Below, one piece after another: positions 1,458 through 61,086 of a DNA stretch of 64,000 nt (position 1 is the first letter of the stretch; every line of letters begins with the position of its first letter). The position numbers and the translations under genes are program-made. The stretch is taken from assembly GCF_900184265.1 (NCBI RefSeq), contig NZ_FXXA01000002.1, forward strand, positions 186,001 to 250,000. Reading direction: 5' to 3'. This stretch comes from Eggerthella timonensis. GTDB lineage: Bacteria > Actinomycetota > Coriobacteriia > Coriobacteriales > Eggerthellaceae. Below the pieces are notes generated by a model. It did no database searches. It was not told the DNA's origin and saw only the letters and a list, made by a program, of their open reading frames with translations.

Positions 1458-2480
1458 CTAGACGAGGTGGGCTTCGCCTGATGAAACGGGTATCTCGGTG
1501 CCGGATGCATCGAGGAGAACGAGGCGGCCCTGGGCGTCGATGCGCCGCACAACGCCTTCGGCCAAGGTGGAGCCCGCCCGATCGACGACGCTCACCGTGC
1601 GGCCGATGAGACTCGCATGGGCGTTGAACTCGTCGACGAGGGCGGCGAACCCGGCACGAGCCCACTCGTCGTACAGCGGCGAGAAGGCAGCGAGGAAGGC
1701 AGCGAGCACGGCTTCGATGGAGGGCGGCGCGACGGGAACGAGATCGGCCACGTACGCGGCGCGGTTCTTGCCGCCCACGTCGGGGCGCTCGTCGGGCGGC
1801 AACACGTTCACGCCCACGCCCACGCACACGCCGCCTCCGTGCGCCTCGAGCGAGATGCCGCAGAGCTTCGCAGGGGCCGGTTCCGAGTCTCCCGATGCGG
1901 CGAACGTCGCGGAAGCGAACGCATCCGCCGATCCGTCACGCCATGTATCGACGCTCGATGCGGGCAGCTTGGCACAAAAGTCGCGATATGAACGATTTTT
2001 CGCGCCCAAAACAGCCTGGGAATCGCAAAACCCCAGGTCGCTGATTGCGCTTTCTTCGGAAAATCGTTCATAACGGCTATTTTGTGCCAAAGCAACGTCG
2101 GCAGCGCCGGCACCTGCGCCCGCACTCGCGCGACCGGGCACGAGCACCACGTCGTTGGGCCACTTGATGCGCACGGCGTCTGCGGCGACATCCCCCGCCA
2201 ACGCCACGAGCGCTCGGCGCACCGCCATTCCCACGACCAGGCTCAACGTCGGCAGCTCGCGCGGCGCCACCTGCGGGCGCAGCAGCAACGAGCAGTACAA
2301 GCCGCCCTCGGGACTGGTCCATGCGCGGCCTTGGCGACCGTACCCGGCAACCTGCCGAAGCGCGCGAACCACGAGGCCCTCGGGTTCGCCGTTGTCGAGC
2401 GCGCGTTTGACCTCATCGTTCGTAGAAGAAACCTCTTCGAGAAGCCGAACGTGGAACAGGGGCTCCCGTTCGTCGCTCAC
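1458..2480 (-). CDS. birA: biotin-[acetyl-CoA-carboxylase] ligase with an in-frame palindromic-element insertion
   Basis: Ligase that activates biotin with ATP and attaches it to the biotin carrier protein of carboxylases. It has no N-terminal helix-turn-helix, so it is a catalytic-only (class I) form. Family motifs are SSTND near the start, the adenylate loop GYGRQGRAW, RIKWPNDVVL, and KLCGISLE with the catalytic Lys. Between WPNDVVL and KLCGI, where homologues have only a few residues, this protein has about 80 extra residues. Residues about 131-171 of that insert are the translation of the 122-bp palindrome at 1969-2090. The protein is 340 residues, long for a class I enzyme. A GTG start at 2480 gives a GTGA overlap with the folP-folK stop; an upstream GTG at 2504 is possible. 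The reading frame is intact and the motifs on both sides are preserved, so it is probably functional. Confidence 0.93.
   Translation of the reverse strand: MSDEREPLFHVRLLEEVSSTNDEVKRALDNGEPEGLVVRALRQVAGYGRQGRAWTSPEGGLYCSLLLRPQVAPRELPTLSLVVGMAVRRALVALAGDVAADAVRIKWPNDVVLVPGRASAGAGAGAADVALAQNSRYERFSEESAISDLGFCDSQAVLGAKNRSYRDFCAKLPASSVDTWRDGSADAFASATFAASGDSEPAPAKLCGISLEAHGGGVCVGVGVNVLPPDERPDVGGKNRAAYVADLVPVAPPSIEAVLAAFLAAFSPLYDEWARAGFAALVDEFNAHASLIGRTVSVVDRAGSTLAEGVVRRIDAQGRLVLLDASGTEIPVSSGEAHLV
1969..2090. repeat. palindromic element copy 1 (122 bp), inside birA
   Basis: Ends are perfectly inverted: TTGGCACAAAA at 1969-1979 and its complement at 2080-2090. A 7-base internal mismatch follows, then an inner stem TATGAACGATTTT at element positions 19-31, which pairs with the matching stretch near 2060-2072. 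The apical part holds the core TCGCAAAACCCCAGGTCGC at element positions 55-73. The copy at 27542-27663 has the same length, and the same motifs at identical positions. Here the element is read through by birA on the minus strand without a stop. Confidence 0.85.
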
Positions 2481-3780
2481 AGGCGCACGGCCTTCCCCAC
2501 GCACGCGCCGTCCGTCGTGACGGGGACGTCGTTCGCCAGCACGTGGCCTGGAACCAGCTCAAGCAAGGGCTGCACGACGAAGTCGCGCTCCAGCAAGCGC
2601 GGGTGCGGCAACGTGAGGACGTCGGTGTCGACGACGTACAGCTGATAGTCGAGGATGTCGAGATCGCAGGTGCGCGGCCCGTTCTCCACGGTGCGCACGC
2701 GGCCGAGGCTGTTCTCCACCGCATGGAGGTAGCCCAGCAGCTCCTTCGGCGGGATACCCGTGCGCAGCAGCACGACGGCGTTCACGAACGCGTCCTGATC
2801 GAGATAATAGGCGGGCTCGCTCTCGTAAAAGCTCGATATGTCGACGATCTGCGAGTCGGGCAGCGAGCACAGTTCGGTGATGGCTTGGTTGAGCATGGCG
2901 ATCTTGCCTTCGCGCTCCTCGCCAGGCGACGCAACCAGCGGTACGTTGCAGCCCATCCCGACGAGAACGTACGGACGCAGCCCTTCGAGCGCCGCAACCG
3001 TGGCAGCAACGTTGTGCGTGCGCACCACGCTGGCCCCCAGCTCGCACGCCATGAGCGCCTCGCTCGCCGACACCTCGTCGCGCGCGGACGGCTCGTCGAT
3101 CCCGTATGCCCAGCCCAAAAAGCTCTTGCGCGACACCGCCACCATCACCGGGTAGCCGAGGCGCACGAGCTCCTGGAAATTGCGCACCAGCTCAAGCGTC
3201 TGCGACGGCGTCTTGCCGAACCCGGGGCCCGGATCTATGCAGATGCGGTCGTGCGCGATACCCGCAGCCTCAAGCTCGACCGCACGCGTGCGCAGCCAAT
3301 CGCGCACGTCCGTCACCACGTCGTCGTAGGCGGGCGCATCCTGCATCGTGGAGGGGTCGCCCTGCATATGCATGACCACAAGGCCGCAATCGCTTTCGCG
3401 CACCGCCTCCACCATACTCGCGTCGCGGAACCCGGACACGTCGTTCACGATAGCCGCGCCCGCATCCAGGCACGCACGCGCCACTTCGGCATGCCGCGTG
3501 TCGATGCTCACGCACACGTCGCGCTGCGCGAGGGCTTGCACCACCGGCACCACGCGCGCCAGCTCTTCGTCCACCGAGACCGGCGCAGCGCCGGGCCGCG
3601 TGGATTCCCCGCCCACGTCGATGATGCGGGCGCCCTCCTCCACCATGCGCTCGGCATGCGCCAACGCCGCGTCGAGCGAATCGTGCTGACCTCCGTCGGA
3701 GAAGGAATCGGGGGTAACGTTGAGGATGCCCATCACGATGGGCATCCTCGTATCGAACTCATAGGTTGAACAGCGCCAGA

Positions 3781-6929: not shown

Positions 6930-6955
6930 GTTCGCCGTCCGTCAGGACGGCGAAC
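6930..6955 (-). terminator. hairpin overlapping the maf stop codon
   Basis: An 11-bp perfect stem with a 4-base loop formed by GTTCGCCGTCC and its complement. The loop contains the maf TGA stop. There is no clear T-run after it, so it may be a weak terminator or an mRNA end-stabiliser. Confidence 0.55.
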
Positions 6956-7628
6956 CCGCGAGGTCGGGGAACTCCTCGAGCAAGCGGCCGACGGGCAGGC
7001 CGATGACCGTGTCGAGCGCGCCGTCCACGCGCGCGACCAGATCGGCCCCGGCCCCCTGCACGGCGTAGGCGCCCGCCTTGTCGAACGACTCGCCCTTGCG
7101 CAGGTAGTCAGCGATCTGCTCGTCGGTGAGCTCGTGGAACGTCACGGCCGAGCGATCCACGAACGTGCGGAAGCCCAGCGAGATCTTCTCGGGCTCGGGC
7201 GCGGCCACCATCCACACGGACACGGCCGTGAGCACCTCGTGGGTACGGCCGGACAGGCGACGCAGCATGCGCTTCGCATCGGACAGGCTGACGGGCTTGC
7301 CGAAGATCTCGCCGTCGAGCACCACCATGGTATCGGCCCCGAGGACGGCGGCCATGCCGACGTAGTCCTCCGCAAGCACCTCCTGCACCACCGCGCCGGC
7401 TTTGCGCTCGGCCAGCTTTTTGCACGCCTCGGGCGGGTCGGCCAGCAGGTCGGGCTCAAGCGTTTCGTCAACTTCGGACGCGTGCACGACGAAGCGCACG
7501 CCGGCATCCTCGAGCAGCTGTTTGCGACGGGGCGAGGCGCTGGCCAGCACCACGTCGAGGGCGGGCATCGGCTCGTCCGGAGCGACCGAAACCTCCGGAG
7601 CGTTTTGGGTGTTCTGTTCGTTTTCCAT
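6942..7628 (-). CDS. maf: Maf nucleoside-triphosphate pyrophosphatase
   Basis: House-cleaning pyrophosphatase of the Maf/YhdE family acting on non-canonical or excess dTTP/UTP-type nucleotides. Conserved blocks are LASASPRRKQLLEDAG, a substrate loop around SEVDET, GADTMVVLDGEIFGKP, GRTHEVLTAV and GESFDKAGAYAVQG. A non-conserved leader of about 25 residues precedes the first strand. The start at 7628 lies about 7 bases from a TACAAT box (7635-7640), so transcription may begin almost at the start codon; ATG 7637 is the alternative. The gap to tilS holds palindromic element copy 2. Confidence 0.95.
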   Translation of the reverse strand: MENEQNTQNAPEVSVAPDEPMPALDVVLASASPRRKQLLEDAGVRFVVHASEVDETLEPDLLADPPEACKKLAERKAGAVVQEVLAEDYVGMAAVLGADTMVVLDGEIFGKPVSLSDAKRMLRRLSGRTHEVLTAVSVWMVAAPEPEKISLGFRTFVDRSAVTFHELTDEQIADYLRKGESFDKAGAYAVQGAGADLVARVDGALDTVIGLPVGRLLEEFPDLAGSPS

Positions 7629-7742
7629 GCGACGCATTGTAGCGCAACCGCCCCTGTTTTCCTAAACCATTGCGATACCGCAATGGCGAGATCACCCGAC
7701 TCGGCGTTTCGCCCCTGTTGATTATGCGTCCCTGCGGCAGAC

Positions 7743-7912
7743 GTTCCGGAGTGGGCGCAAAGCGGCGCCCATGACAATTTTCAGTGGCCCAAAGCTTGAA
7801 GAAACGGGTCTGGATTTTCGCCACCTGGGGTTTTCGCGATGTTTTGGCTCGGCCGGCCTACGCAAGACGGTCGGAAATTGTCATGGGCGCCGCTTTGCGC
7901 CCACTCCGGAAC
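7743..7912. repeat. palindromic element copy 2 (170 bp, perfect 38-bp arms)
   Basis: Bases 7743-7780 and 7875-7912 are perfect reverse complements over 38 bp, enclosing a 94-base apical region. On the minus strand the apical region carries the family core, TCGCGAAAACCCCAGGTGGC, followed by GAAAA. The inner ends of the arms (ATGACAATTT) resemble the ATGAACGATTTT motif of copies 1 and 3. It lies between tilS and maf, so it would be transcribed in the tilS-maf mRNA. Confidence 0.82.
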
Positions 7913-7925
7913 CTCGTAGCGCGGC

Positions 7926-9041
7926 CTACCCGCGCTTTCGGCGGGCTCGGTAGGCGGCCATGGGCTCGATGCGAACGCCATGCTTGTTCGCGCTGACGGC
8001 GAGATCGCCCTGGATGTTGGTCACGTAGCCGCCACGGGGCTTGCCGCCCTGCCCGTCGTCGAACGCGGCCAGCACCGCTTCCACCGACGCCGTTTCCACG
8101 CGGGCGTCGCGGCCCAGCATCAGCTGCAACGCGCGCAGCACGGCGCGGCGGCGCAGCGGCAGCGGCTCCGCGCCGAACCCGGGAGCCAGCACGCAGCCTG
8201 CACCGTAGTCGTCGCCGAGCGCTTCGACGCGGTCGGCCATCAACTCGTCTACCATGCGCTCCAGCATGTCGTCCTCGTCGGCGATCAGGTTCATGGTGCG
8301 TCCGAGCACCTCGAGCAGCTGCGGATTGCGCTCCTTCGCGCGCGGCACGATCTCGTGGCGCACGTAGGCGCGGAAGCGATCGGTGTGCGCGTTCGTCGCA
8401 TCCTCGCGCCACAGGTTGCCCGCACCGTCGCACGCCACGGGCGCTTCTGTCTGCTCGCGCTCTGCAATGTAGGCGCGCAGCTCCTCGCGGCTGACGTCGA
8501 GCAACGGGCGCACCACCGGTCCGTTGCGGTACTTCATAGCGCGGAACCCGCCCGGCCCCGTGCCCACGATCGAGCGCATGTAGAAGCTCTCCACGCGATC
8601 GTCGGACGTGTGCGCCGTGAGGATGCGACCGTCGGCCAGGGGCGCCGCCGCGTGAAGGCACAGGCTTTCGAGCGCCTCGTTCGCGGCCAGGTAGCGCTCG
8701 CGGCGGGCGACGGCTTCCACGTTCTCGCCCGTGCGCCGCGCCTCGCCTGCGATGTCGATGTCGCACGAGAACAGCGGGATGTTCAGCAGCTCGGCCAGCC
8801 GGGCGACGAAACGCGCGTCGTCGTCGGCGTCGTCGCCGCGCAGCTGATGGTTGACATGCAGCATGGCCAGCTGGCCGAGCGCCCCGCACTCGCGCAGCTC
8901 GCTCGCGACGTAGGCGAGCGCCGTGGAGTCCGATCCGCCCGACACCATCAACAGCACCGGGGTGTCCGCCCCCGCCAACGCGCGCTCCTCCAACGTCTCC
9001 GCCACGCGACCGACCAGGGTTTCCGTCCGTTCGGCAGCCAT
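7926..9041 (-). CDS. tilS: tRNA(Ile)-lysidine synthase
   Basis: Converts C34 of the CAU-anticodon tRNA-Ile to lysidine using ATP and lysine, which makes the tRNA read AUA. The PP-loop SGGSDSTALAYVAS lies near residue 33, with the downstream family block LLHVNHQLRGDDADDDARFV, then TAHTSDDRVESFYMR and RPLLDVSREELRAYI. Length is 371 residues including the C-terminal substrate-binding part. ATG 9041 has a strong GGAGGGG site and forms a TGATG overlap with the preceding gene. The ORF could extend in frame upstream, but that region is the end of its neighbour. Confidence 0.95.
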   Translation of the reverse strand: MAAERTETLVGRVAETLEERALAGADTPVLLMVSGGSDSTALAYVASELRECGALGQLAMLHVNHQLRGDDADDDARFVARLAELLNIPLFSCDIDIAGEARRTGENVEAVARRERYLAANEALESLCLHAAAPLADGRILTAHTSDDRVESFYMRSIVGTGPGGFRAMKYRNGPVVRPLLDVSREELRAYIAEREQTEAPVACDGAGNLWREDATNAHTDRFRAYVRHEIVPRAKERNPQLLEVLGRTMNLIADEDDMLERMVDELMADRVEALGDDYGAGCVLAPGFGAEPLPLRRRAVLRALQLMLGRDARVETASVEAVLAAFDDGQGGKPRGGYVTNIQGDLAVSANKHGVRIEPMAAYRARRKRG

Positions 9042-11704
9042 CACGCCCTCCCCTCCAAGAACCTCCGCTCGAATTCGTCTTCGGGCAGCGGGCGACCGAA
9101 CAGGAAGCCCTGGATGTAGTCGAGCCCCATGCCGCCCACCACCTCGTACTCCGCATCGGTTTCCACGCCTTCGAGGCACACGCTGATGCCCACGGCGTGG
9201 CACAGCTCCACCACGAACTTGATGAACGTGGCATCGAACGTGCTCGTTTGGATGTCGCGGATGAACGCCCGGTCGATTTTCACGATATCGGCGGGCGAAG
9301 TCTTCAGCACGCCCAGCGACGAGTACCCCGTGCCGAAATCGTCCATAGCCACGCGCACGCCCTGCATGCGCAGCTGATCGAACAGCTGATGCGTGGCCTG
9401 CGCATCGTCGGCAAAACGGCTCTCGGTCATCTCCACGACGAGGCTATCGGGAGGCAGCCCCGCCTCGTGCAGCGTGTCGACGATGAGCGGGGCCAGACCT
9501 TCTTCGTCGAGCTGGCGATACGACAGGTTCACGCTCATGGTGAAGGACGGGATCGCCTTGCGCCATCGCTTGCACGTGTCCACCGCATGCTGCAGCACCC
9601 ACGTGCCCATCGGCACGATGAGGCCGCTCTCTTCGAGGAGGGGGATGAACTCGAGCGGCGACAGATCGCCGTACGCGTCGCAGCGCCAGCGCGCGAGCGC
9701 CTCGGCGCCCACGACGCGCCCCGTCGCGGCTTCCACCTGGGGCTGGTAGCACAGGCTGAACCCCTTGAAACCGTTTTCCACGCTGTCGCGCAGCAGCTCC
9801 ATGAGCTCGAGCTCGCGTACGCGCTCGGCCAGGATGGGCTGTGAGAAGTTCACGCAGCGCTTCTTGCCGTGCCCCTTCGCGTACTCCAGGGCGTAGTTGG
9901 CGTACTTGACGAGGCTCTCGTAGGTCTCGGCATCGACAGGATATTGCGCGATGCCGCCGGACAGCGTGCAGTAGAACTTGCGCCCTTCGTGGTCGTGCTG
10001 TCGCTGGAACATACCGCCTAGCTGGGCGTACGCCCCTCGCAGCACGTTGACGTCGTCGTTGACGATCACCGCGAACTCATCGCCGTCGAGACGGTACACG
10101 CGCGCCTCCTCGGGCAGCGCGCTCTGAATGCGCTGCGCCACGAACCGGATGACTTCGTCGCCGAACGCGCGGTCGTAGCGGTCGTTGATGTGCCGCAAGT
10201 CGTCGATGCCCAGCATCATGAGGCTCATCGGCTCGTTCGGCATCGTCTCGATGCGACGACGTACGTCGTCTTCGAACTCGAACTTGTTGAACAGGCCGGT
10301 CAGCGGATCGACTTTGCTCTTCTTGCCAAGGTTCGCGATGAACCCGGCGAACAGCAGCGGCTTGCCTCCCGCGTCGAGGATGAGCCGACCGCGGCACCGC
10401 AGCCGCACCCACTCGCCCTTGCGGTTGATGGCGCGGTACTCCACCCAATGACGCGTGGTGCGCGCATCGGCTATTTCCTGGTTCGATTCGAGGAACACCT
10501 GCTTGTCGTCGGGATGCACCTTCGAACCCCACACGGCCGCCGCGTTCTCCACCACTTCGGAGGGCAGGTCGAACTCCTCCACCATCGCGCGCGGATAGCG
10601 GAACACGCCGGTTCTCATGTTGCATACGTAAAGATAGTCGTCGGTGCTCTCGACGAGCGCGTCGTACAGCTTGCCCTCCTCGTACGAGAACGCGCGAGGA
10701 TCGACCGACACGCCTTTGCCCGATTGCTCGGAGCTGATCAGCTCGTTGATGTTGCGGTCGATATGGTAGCGGCGCTTCTCCTCGTACATGCGCTGGTCGG
10801 CCAAGGCCAGCACCTCGTACACCTCGAGCGGCGCTTCCGGATCGACCTCCGCGATGCCAAAGCAGAAGCCCATGTCGTACGGAGGATCGGTACGGCGGGG
10901 GATCGCGGTGAGCGACCGGCGAGCGTGCTCGACCTTCGCACGCGTCGAGGCCGCATCGCCCAGGAACACGCACACGAACTCGTCGCCGCTCAGACGGAAC
11001 CCGTAGTCGTTCGGCCCGAACTCGCTGCGCAGGGCGTTCGCGGCCGAGCGGATGAGATAGTCACCCTCGGCGTGTCCGTACTGGTCGTTGACGTCCTTCA
11101 AGCGGTTGATGTCGTACAGCACGATGGACACGTCCTCGCCCTCGACTGCGGCGCGCGCGAGCGAGATGGCCAAGCGATCCTTGCCGGCGCGGCGACTCAT
11201 CATGCCGGTCAGCTCGTCGGTGTTCGCCGACACAAGCGCCGTGATGTCCACCGACTGCTGCAGGTGCACGCGCGAGCCGTCGACCCACTCGACCAAGCTG
11301 TCGTAATTGCGATACGTGCGGCCCGTCACCGGGCTTTCTTCGTCCCACTCCACCAACGGCGTCTCGTCGCCGCAGCTCAAAAGCTCGTCTACGGGACAGA
11401 ACGCGCACCGCTCAGTCAAGCCGCGCTGCAGCACCTGCCAGCACGTCTTGCCTTCGGGGTTCTCCACGCCGTAATCGTGCTTCATGAACCCGTTCATGTA
11501 GAGGATCTTGTCGGTTTCGGGGTCGGTCACGTAAATGCTCGTGCGCATGCCCTCCAACACGGTGTCGAACACGAAGCGGTGCAGATCGGTCACGCCGTCG
11601 CTTCGACCATCGGCAGTCGACGGCGCATCGTGACGCATCACCGGAGCCATCTCGCCCGGCCGTTCGTCCGACGCAGACGATTGCTCGGAATCGCACTCGC
11701 TCAT
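9041..11704 (-). CDS. PAS-GGDEF-PAS-GGDEF-EAL cyclic-di-GMP signalling protein
   Basis: An 887-residue soluble protein with two diguanylate-cyclase-type domains and one phosphodiesterase-type domain. Order: a PAS-like sensor at about 40-170 with a Cys-containing insert (RCAFCPVDELLSCG); GGDEF-1 at about 170-330 with the motif SGDEF; a second PAS at about 350-470; GGDEF-2 with DGDEF; then EAL with the start EALARW and the metal-site signature DDFGTGYSSL. Both GGDEF motifs lack the first Gly, so cyclase activity is uncertain. The EAL residues look intact, favouring a net phosphodiesterase. No membrane helix is visible. ATGA overlap with rlmD and TGATG overlap with tilS place it in a housekeeping operon. 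Confidence 0.92.
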   Translation of the reverse strand: MSECDSEQSSASDERPGEMAPVMRHDAPSTADGRSDGVTDLHRFVFDTVLEGMRTSIYVTDPETDKILYMNGFMKHDYGVENPEGKTCWQVLQRGLTERCAFCPVDELLSCGDETPLVEWDEESPVTGRTYRNYDSLVEWVDGSRVHLQQSVDITALVSANTDELTGMMSRRAGKDRLAISLARAAVEGEDVSIVLYDINRLKDVNDQYGHAEGDYLIRSAANALRSEFGPNDYGFRLSGDEFVCVFLGDAASTRAKVEHARRSLTAIPRRTDPPYDMGFCFGIAEVDPEAPLEVYEVLALADQRMYEEKRRYHIDRNINELISSEQSGKGVSVDPRAFSYEEGKLYDALVESTDDYLYVCNMRTGVFRYPRAMVEEFDLPSEVVENAAAVWGSKVHPDDKQVFLESNQEIADARTTRHWVEYRAINRKGEWVRLRCRGRLILDAGGKPLLFAGFIANLGKKSKVDPLTGLFNKFEFEDDVRRRIETMPNEPMSLMMLGIDDLRHINDRYDRAFGDEVIRFVAQRIQSALPEEARVYRLDGDEFAVIVNDDVNVLRGAYAQLGGMFQRQHDHEGRKFYCTLSGGIAQYPVDAETYESLVKYANYALEYAKGHGKKRCVNFSQPILAERVRELELMELLRDSVENGFKGFSLCYQPQVEAATGRVVGAEALARWRCDAYGDLSPLEFIPLLEESGLIVPMGTWVLQHAVDTCKRWRKAIPSFTMSVNLSYRQLDEEGLAPLIVDTLHEAGLPPDSLVVEMTESRFADDAQATHQLFDQLRMQGVRVAMDDFGTGYSSLGVLKTSPADIVKIDRAFIRDIQTSTFDATFIKFVVELCHAVGISVCLEGVETDAEYEVVGGMGLDYIQGFLFGRPLPEDEFERRFLEGRA

Positions 11705-27398: not shown

Positions 27399-27784
27399 GG
27401 GTCACGTTCCCGCTTCGACGTTTGCGTGCACGATAGGCCGATTATAACAGTCCATCGATCAAAGCCGACCGGCCGCACGCGCGCGCATCGACCCGTGCAA
27501 TACGCACGCAAGCCTCTCGCTGCTAACTCCGCTTTGAAAGCTTGGCAGAGAATGCACGTTATGAACGATTTTGAGCTTCCGCTTACAGATCAATTTCGCA
27601 TAACCCCAGGTCGCAAAAAGTTAGACGTGGCTATTGTCGTTCACAACGTGCATTCTCTGCCAACCTGGCGCACGCCCATCGTCGAACCAGCATGTCGATA
27701 TCGGTTCGACAGCGAATATCCGCGAAAGAGAGTCATAGAGCACAGGAACAACGAAGGTTGCATCCGGAAACCACCGGGCACGCC
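27399..27784. other. 386-bp gap: promoter of NrfD gene, palindromic element, small hairpin
   Basis: Contains the NrfD-gene -10 box, palindromic element copy 3 (27542-27663) and an 8-bp hairpin GTCGAACC/GGTTCGAC (27681-27710) near the end of the ZIP gene. No coding sequence seen. Confidence 0.7.
27542..27663. repeat. palindromic element copy 3 (122 bp)
   Basis: TTGGCAGAGAATGCACGTTATGAACGA-type left arm pairs with the right end through about 27 bases with only a few mismatches. The core TCGCATAACCCCAGGTCGC lies at element positions 55-73 and TATGAACGATTTT at 19-31, as in copy 1. Positions 7-18 differ from copy 1 in both arms but remain complementary. Confidence 0.87.
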
Positions 27785-60638: not shown

Positions 60639-60790
60639 ACGCAACGCTGCCGTCGGGAGCGGAGTCGGTGACAGGGGCCTCGCAGCACGAGCCGGGAAGC
60701 CGGCAGCGCCGCCTCCCCGACAAAGCCGCCTTCAGGCGCGGCGTCATGCGCATATATCGACTGCGCTGAGCCAGCAAAACCCCGAAATCT

Positions 60791-60951
60791 GGTAGGTTTT
60801 GCACGATATTCATCCTCGCATCGGCTAGCCCGCAGCCGCTAAAGCCCGGTCGATTTCTCCGACCTGGGATAACGGATCGCGTGCAAGTCGAAACGTCGGT
60901 TACGACCCCAGTTCCGCAGCCCCAGATGCTGAATATCGTGCAAAACCGACC
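60791..60951. repeat. candidate palindromic element copy 5 (161 bp)
   Basis: Arms GGTAGGTTTTGCACGATATT (60791-60810) and the complementary 60932-60951 pair with one mismatch, extending to 22 bases. A degenerate core on the minus strand reads TTATCCCAGGTCGG (about 60861-60875). Diverged relative to copies 1-3. Confidence 0.6.
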
Positions 60952-61086
60952 ACAAGACGCGAATTCTCTGGCGCAGCTTCGTCGCACCAAGCTGGTCGAC
61001 GCCACGCAACCGAGTGCGCAATGCCGACGGAAGAAGCGCCCCCAGGCGAGCATCGGCAAGCTCGCGTCTCCATAACCCCTGGTCGT

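Follow-up and report, generated by a model that had tools for sequence, protein, structure and literature searches.

The perfect hairpin at positions 7743-7912 of the window (the whole 64,000-nucleotide stretch of Eggerthella timonensis DNA analysed here) is a member of a family of dispersed palindromic elements, in which complementary ends of about 28 to 30 nt, often beginning TGGCA, flank an unstructured spacer with a conserved core (AAACCCCWGGTCGC). The distances from the ends to this core step by about 10.3 to 10.5 nt, and it is this spacing that gives a clue, as the ends and the core keep their helical register though the spacer sequence is free. With a probability of roughly 0.6, we think that the hairpin is a non-coding DNA element that acts in double-stranded form, through a putative protein complex on its ends and core, and that resembles a non-autonomous mobile element. 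Dispersed palindromes are common in bacteria, and the forces that keep their arms matched, as well as the factors that act on them, are mostly unclear. Among the literature matches listed, none describes such a family in Eggerthella, and none describes dispersed palindromes with helical-turn spacing. The family is common in the gut relatives among the Coriobacteria, and its core and ends may serve as a handle for finding the putative protein.

The two arms of the hairpin (7743-7780 and 7875-7912) are 38 nt each and enclose a loop of 94 nt. Re-reading of the strand confirmed that they are perfectly complementary, as stated in the initial annotation, and a slightly wider pairing (7740-7780 with 7875-7915) reaches 98% over 41 nt. 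The hairpin sits between two minus-strand genes, maf (6942-7637, Pfam Maf) and a PP-loop ATPase gene (7926-9203, by Pfam) that fits tilS, so that its assignment to a tilS-maf gap holds. The element body, which belongs to arm class C, comprises 152 nt (7752-7903, minus strand) and matches the class C covariance model R2 at G000:C2:193752-193903 with an E value of 4.3e-34, this copy being among the 16 training sequences of the model. The family end proper is the 29-nt sequence TGGGCGCAAAGCGGCGCCCATGACAATTT (7752-7780, plus strand), and its complementary copy (7875-7903, plus strand) was found by inverted-repeat and homology searches. The apical core, AAACCCCAGGTGGC on the minus strand at 7820-7833, matches the family core at 13 of 14 positions, lies 70 and 68 nt from the ends and is indeed common to the other copies in the window. 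Only the outer 9 bp on each side, GTTCCGGAG at 7743-7751 and CTCCGGAAC at 7904-7912 (both plus strand; locus L301, extension score 9), are private to this copy, and they represent either a host palindrome or an extension of the arms. The neighboring part of the gap (7643-7742) retains CATTGCGATACCGCAATG, which by eye resembles a palindrome that precedes toxin-antitoxin-like genes at the same place in the related genome G002 and is perhaps a relic.

The arm sequence had been described as unrelated to that of other copies, and copies with the same arm had been named as the observation that would speak against this. Such copies do exist. A DNA search of the own genome with the hairpin as the query gave 88 matches at E<=10, of which many cover a single arm, and at all 13 distinct loci read from this search (the window locus included) the arm is present on both sides in inverted orientation, with imperfect pairing at several of them, such as L006, L009, L022, and L029. 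The R2 model also finds the arm, at 27 places in the own genome at E<=1e-14 (window copy included; counted from the listing and read in part), and it matches all four genomes of the genus. A unique palindrome is thus ruled out. The more general idea that complementarity is conserved and sequence is not stands for the family as a whole, in which pairing is kept better than sequence, and falls for the arm of this copy, which occurs elsewhere. Inverted repeats of hairpin size exceed chance in the own genome and in two relatives: at a score of at least 15, there are 27 inverted versus 2 mirror repeats in the 440 kb around the hairpin, and 17 versus 2 and 17 versus 1 in 400 kb of each of the related genomes. 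Within the window, two class A copies of 120 nt lie on the plus strand at 1970-2089 (G000:C2:187970-188089) and 27543-27662 (G000:C2:213543-213662), both matched by the class A model R1 and both in its training set, and an inverted-repeat scan gave a weaker member of 163 nt, with a core of 10/14, on the minus strand at 60790-60952 (G000 246790-246952). The class models R1 and R2 contain copies that they then find, and both were built without any information on length steps. The copy at 1970-2089 lies within a biotin-ligase open reading frame (ORF) (1458-2504, minus strand), between the two Pfam domains of that ORF; at the matching place a copy is present in G002 and absent in G001.

Pooled scans and fetched loci yielded 93 distinct inverted repeats, of which 52 carry the core at 11 or more of 14 positions. 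The core AAACCCCAGGTCGC is common to about a dozen arm classes. Eleven classes were named by a crude assignment that places 28 of the 93 inverted repeats in no class, and some of these 28 do not belong to the family at all, such as 5S rRNA genes, identified by the look of their sequence. The consensus of 24 elements from different genomes has the ends TGGCA-AAA and the core AAACCCCAGGTCG, with GGT invariant in the 20 of these elements that score at least 10, a score that shuffled loops attain in 6%. Like a MITE, the element is short, non-coding and multicopy and has terminal inverted repeats. The R1 model, built from 12 copies, matches 27 of 60 genomes of the bacterial family at E<=0.01 and, at E<=0.001, 20 of 149 genomes of the bacterial class (11 from the own family, with the genus counted in, 8 from two sister families and 1 from another order). 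The exact core is found in 36 of 197 genomes of the class, 16 from the own family and 20 from the two sister families, compared to 3 hits for the reversed pattern. In the sister families the exact core alone does not always mark an element, as only three (L234, L235, and L245) of the 21 exact cores at 20 loci lie in an inverted repeat that clearly outscores shuffled flanks. The element is thus present in the bacterial family of the window and in some genomes of the sister families. Palindromes of 59 to 68 nt with element-like ends and no core occur at L161, L336 (G004), and L165 (G037) and are possibly coreless relatives.

The spacing was analysed in the 104 of 116 measured elements, from 24 genomes, that carry the core at 10 or more of 14 positions. 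Left distances are mostly 48, 58-59, 68-70, 79-80, and 100 nt, and right distances are mostly 38-39, 47-48, 58-59, 67-70, 78-80, and 90 nt. As copies within one genome are related, the tests were repeated per genome, and a bootstrap by genome over the 24 genomes gave a best period of 10.30 nt (10.05-10.55). The mean R was 0.89 at a period of 10.5, 0.87 at 10.0, which fits almost as well, and 0.81 at 11.0, and in 0 of 1000 resamples was R at 11.0 above that at 10.5. A jittered null gave a mean R of 0.22 with a maximum of 0.51. All elements except L172, L178, and L322, that is, 101 of the 104, deviate from a 10.5-nt grid by no more than 1.6 nt. When no score filter was applied, in 28 genomes, the maximal R was 0.79 for the real core versus a mean of 0.26 and a maximum of 0.68 for 200 shuffled cores. 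With the genus of the window excluded, R was 0.88 on 38 distances; for total lengths alone it was 0.69. Thirteen loci were fetched later, one of them from G002, a genome already in the main set; 12 were long enough and 9 had a core of at least 10, and these gave an R of 0.69 on 18 distances, with the distance pairs 41/41 and 51/91 off the grid. For other arm classes from a de novo scan, R was 0.75 with a best period of 10.95, a value based on the 10 of 41 elements that were well measurable and on ends that are hard to define. The helical repeat of B-DNA is 10 to 10.5, and that of A-form RNA is about 11; the period observed here fits B-DNA better than A-form RNA. The loops, whether whole or taken as halves, fold no differently from shuffled sequence (mean z -0.34, -0.02, and 0.07; n=104; mononucleotide shuffles). 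Steps of 10.3 to 10.5 nt together with loops that do not fold fit double-stranded DNA whose ends and core face the same side of the helix, and they do not fit an RNA structure. What the spacing pattern suggests is a protein-DNA machine not described before, and not a one-off RNA structure.

We propose that a putative protein complex holds the core together with the two ends, all on the same side of the helix, and that it bends the spacer, in which case only spacers of whole helical turns would work; the sequence of the spacer would be free, and its length in turns would be constrained. Phased accessory sites are known from recombination synapses, such as those of resolvase and lambda-type sites, and by analogy we liken the protein that would join ends and core to these. 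The element would behave as a non-autonomous mobile element, with variants that multiply within single genomes. Fourteen of the 16 copies fetched from G006 are exactly 130 nt long, and the five copies of G055 are 141 nt long. Target duplications of at least 3 nt are absent, in which the element departs from a MITE, as flanking direct repeats of 3 to 9 nt were present in 0 of 113 elements; repeats of 2 nt flank 14 of them, compared to a control mean of 7.7 and maximum of 19. Double-stranded binding alone does not explain why the arms are complementary, and we infer that complementarity is held by selection at the level of the element, by quasi-palindrome correction, in which the arms are copied from each other, or by the two together. 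In the case of the hairpin at 7743-7912, a 9-bp palindrome adjoining the element would extend the arms to 38 bp. A broader proposal, which we make tentatively, is that these elements form an undescribed class of phased palindromes, present in at least three families of one order, on which a conserved recombination or chromosome-organising complex needs integral turns between both ends and a common core while the arms drift but match.

Two known groups of palindromic elements can be compared with this one, on the basis of the parts of PMC2229807 that describe them. The Correia/NEMIS elements of Neisseria are about 107 and 155 bp long, with terminal inverted repeats of 24 bp and paired transcripts, and the two length forms are about 50 bp apart, with an IHF site in the longer one. 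Our element is like them in size and in its terminal inverted repeats, a likeness of description; they differ in having target duplications and TA at the ends, whereas our element has no duplications of 3 nt or more. YPAL/RU-2 of Yersinia is also a palindromic mobile element (168 bp), with targets that span or adjoin a dyad symmetry, but it is reported to have target duplications of 3 to 26 bp, and its inverted repeats are internal.

A possible reading, although on balance not a likely one, is that the palindromes are chromosome-organising or regulatory sites of the host, at which a resident DNA-binding protein uses ends and core that face the same side of the helix, the copies being kept by selection on the host. 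The helical phasing argues for this, and so do the orthologous copies, which keep the core, the pairing and often the exact length (128/128/128 in three species for K, 140/140 for N, and 157/157 for F); in one pair (B, 143/153) the lengths are 10 nt apart, and the others are 169/167 and 166/163/163, differences of 2 to 3 nt that speak against spacing in whole turns. Arm identity between orthologous copies is 0.66 to 1.00 and is above loop identity in 10 of 10 comparisons, and in 8 of 10 the loops fell to 54-67% identity while the core and the arms were kept. That core and arms outlast the loops suggests selection at the host level, which would be superfluous for a purely selfish element, and the long survival of the orthologs similarly suggests some use to the host. 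What argues against a host site is that the genome-specific amplified variants look mobile, and so does the lineage-specific presence at the tilS-maf locus. The element is absent at all 19 named orthologous loci; 16 of them have no inverted repeat scoring at least 12, and L067, L075, and L077 have inverted repeats of a different sequence. The matching gap is without the element in G001 and G003, and in G002 it contains other genes in a 1.3-kb insert, the ORFs of which, by eye, we take to be a toxin-antitoxin pair. The comparison of orthologous tilS-maf gaps proposed in the initial annotation thus identified no relative with this element among those examined. The gap is not alignable between species, and its surroundings have diverged too far to give an exact insertion point or a clean empty site.

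The same annotation had set compensatory base changes against wholesale replacement of the arms. Paired changes are common in classes A and C, and a given arm class is retained from species to species and from copy to copy, so that arms are not, as a rule, replaced wholesale. The alignment of class A copies spans 120 columns with no internal gaps, and beyond the core their loops have little in common. In this class, 92.1% of the cells are paired and both sides have changed in 16 of 30 pairs (42 such cells), which 0 of 500 shuffles equalled; further pair types were matched by 9 of 500 shuffles, and sliding the partner gives at most 6 pairs. In class C, both-side changes occur in 7 of 29 pairs (3 of 500 shuffles) and 11 cells (0 of 500), and the count of further pair types was matched by 40 of 500 shuffles. 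A search by inverted-repeat score favours elements that pair well; the 13 loci read in the own genome were found by homology instead. In a nearest-neighbour comparison of the ends (59 pairs), there were 66 paired changes, 26 of the transition type and 40 of the transversion type, and 148 one-sided changes (83 and 65, respectively). Adjacent paired changes numbered 10, double the random expectation of 5.0 +- 2.0.

This doubling is one point in favour of inverted copying, in which template switching during replication would renew the arms wholesale and would make and repair perfect palindromes, outer extensions included. According to the portions of PMC8794818 that deal with it, template switching can create and maintain hairpins, and it is a DNA-level process able to make and restore perfect arms (quasi-palindrome correction). 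Outer palindromic extensions are present in 17 of 113 elements, versus 0.9% in the control, and G055 was searched for an uninterrupted form of its shared outer palindrome and none was found, which also fits inverted copying. On the other hand, one-sided changes exceed paired ones by 148 to 66, and arm classes persist. Template switching is, moreover, a mutation process and not an element, and it predicts neither the core nor the helical spacing. We think it unlikely that inverted copying renews the arms wholesale. The outer arms may instead have originated by insertion into host hairpins. As described in part of PMC1525189, IS elements target REPs, and insertion into palindromes of this kind could explain the outer 9-bp arms; the difference is that the empty palindrome searched for in G055 was not found there. 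By eye, the outer palindrome of G055 at L201 looks like a terminator.

Covariation in an RNA structure, one of the two explanations offered at the outset, is not favoured. It would mean that the arms pair in a transcript, for example, as an RNase III site or a small RNA, and covary under selection on the stem. The strong covariation of classes A and C and the better conservation of arms than of loops in orthologs agree with this, and on the core strand G.T mismatches exceed A.C mismatches (79 versus 54, and 27 versus 18 in another set), a mild skew in the same direction. But the period is near 10.3 to 10.5 and not 11, the loops fold no better than shuffles, and transversion-type paired changes are more frequent than transition-type ones (40 versus 26). 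The orientation of the core relative to genes is also mixed: by crude gene calls, the core between codirectional genes is sense in 8 and antisense in 12 cases (n=20), and among 40 family members 11 overlap predicted ORFs, 7 lie between convergent genes and 2 between divergent ones. Rfam gave 0 matches in the window at the gathering threshold and, for seven loci at E<=1, nothing but sub-threshold matches to microRNA and IRES families, so that a known RNA was rejected as a candidate. A structured RNA thus seems quite unlikely to us.

Of the same general plan are the REPINs, REP doublets that form hairpins (Bertels and Rainey 2011, PMC3116915), in which two inverted REPs are mobilised by a REP-associated tyrosine transposase (RAYT). 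In the part of that paper that bears on this, REPINs are short dispersed inverted repeats of fixed length with a less conserved spacer; spacer length and hairpin capacity matter, and compensatory changes are common. Our element has in common with them the conserved spacer length and the compensatory changes, and as the REPIN work already reports these features, covarying arms alone are not new. The shared internal core and the helical-turn spacing set the element apart and are not mentioned for REPINs in that part of the paper. In most classes its single arms appear to be weak hairpins, folding with a mean z by class from 0.68 to -3.13 (for the larger classes, A, -0.68; B, -1.56; C, -1.23; F, -0.09), and the end consensus of the 24 elements, TGGCA-AAA, is unlike a GTAG or CGTC tag. 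The search for a RAYT suggested initially did turn up a single gene for a RAYT-like Y1 transposase in the own genome, but Y1 genes do not track the repeats. They are present in 30 of 60 genomes (17 with both, 10 with repeats only, 13 with Y1 only, and 20 with neither; Fisher p 0.12) and are absent in 3 of the 9 genomes with at least 10 hits, and on this co-occurrence we reject a RAYT as the mobiliser. The own Y1 gene (L079 1080-1930) lies between CCTTTGGGG-type palindromes, which are unlike the arms of the element. A RAYT-driven REPIN is therefore very unlikely. The reverse transcriptase that had been considered as another means of renewing the arms did not turn up either, as the own genome has no match to PF00078 (RVT_1).

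An invertible switch, in which recombination between the arms would flip the loop and keep the arms alike, is extremely improbable; a motif of about 20 nt lies to the left of the core in 7 and to the right in 8 of 16 G006 copies by eye, but orthologs keep the orientation of the core at five loci, and at a sixth, where the core is weak, one of two comparisons differs. In these G006 copies (L182-L197), the motif, which is about TATATGACTnnCAGCATCA, abuts one end of the element in 15 of 16 cases.

Carriage by phages was also considered. An exact 17-mer of the arm is present in 3 viral contigs, and by eye there is no element in the approximately 460 nt around each, so that this candidate was set aside. 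Several sister-family genomes share a block in which a gene has the exact core upstream of it (L247 and similar loci). By its look this gene was taken for Abi_2, and a 72-aa fragment of it gave no Pfam hit. In G015, a core (G015:C2:681754) is found about 260 nt before an Abi_2 match. Among 26 Abi_2 loci with an ORF found by script, no core was seen near 24, and the other two have a match with 3 mismatches; at 4 further loci the script gave no ORF. Eight core loci were compared with the Rfam abiF motif, and none matched it. A link between the core and Abi genes is thus a lead. A second repeat family, GTCGCTCGGACAGTCCT...GGAACTCGCTTGGTGGGC, occurs in inverted-repeat settings at L041 1733, L042 2665, and G002 3316176. 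Several intergenic regions (L034, L081, L182, L189, and L193) contain TGTTTCACGTGAAACA-like palindromes, which resemble parS.
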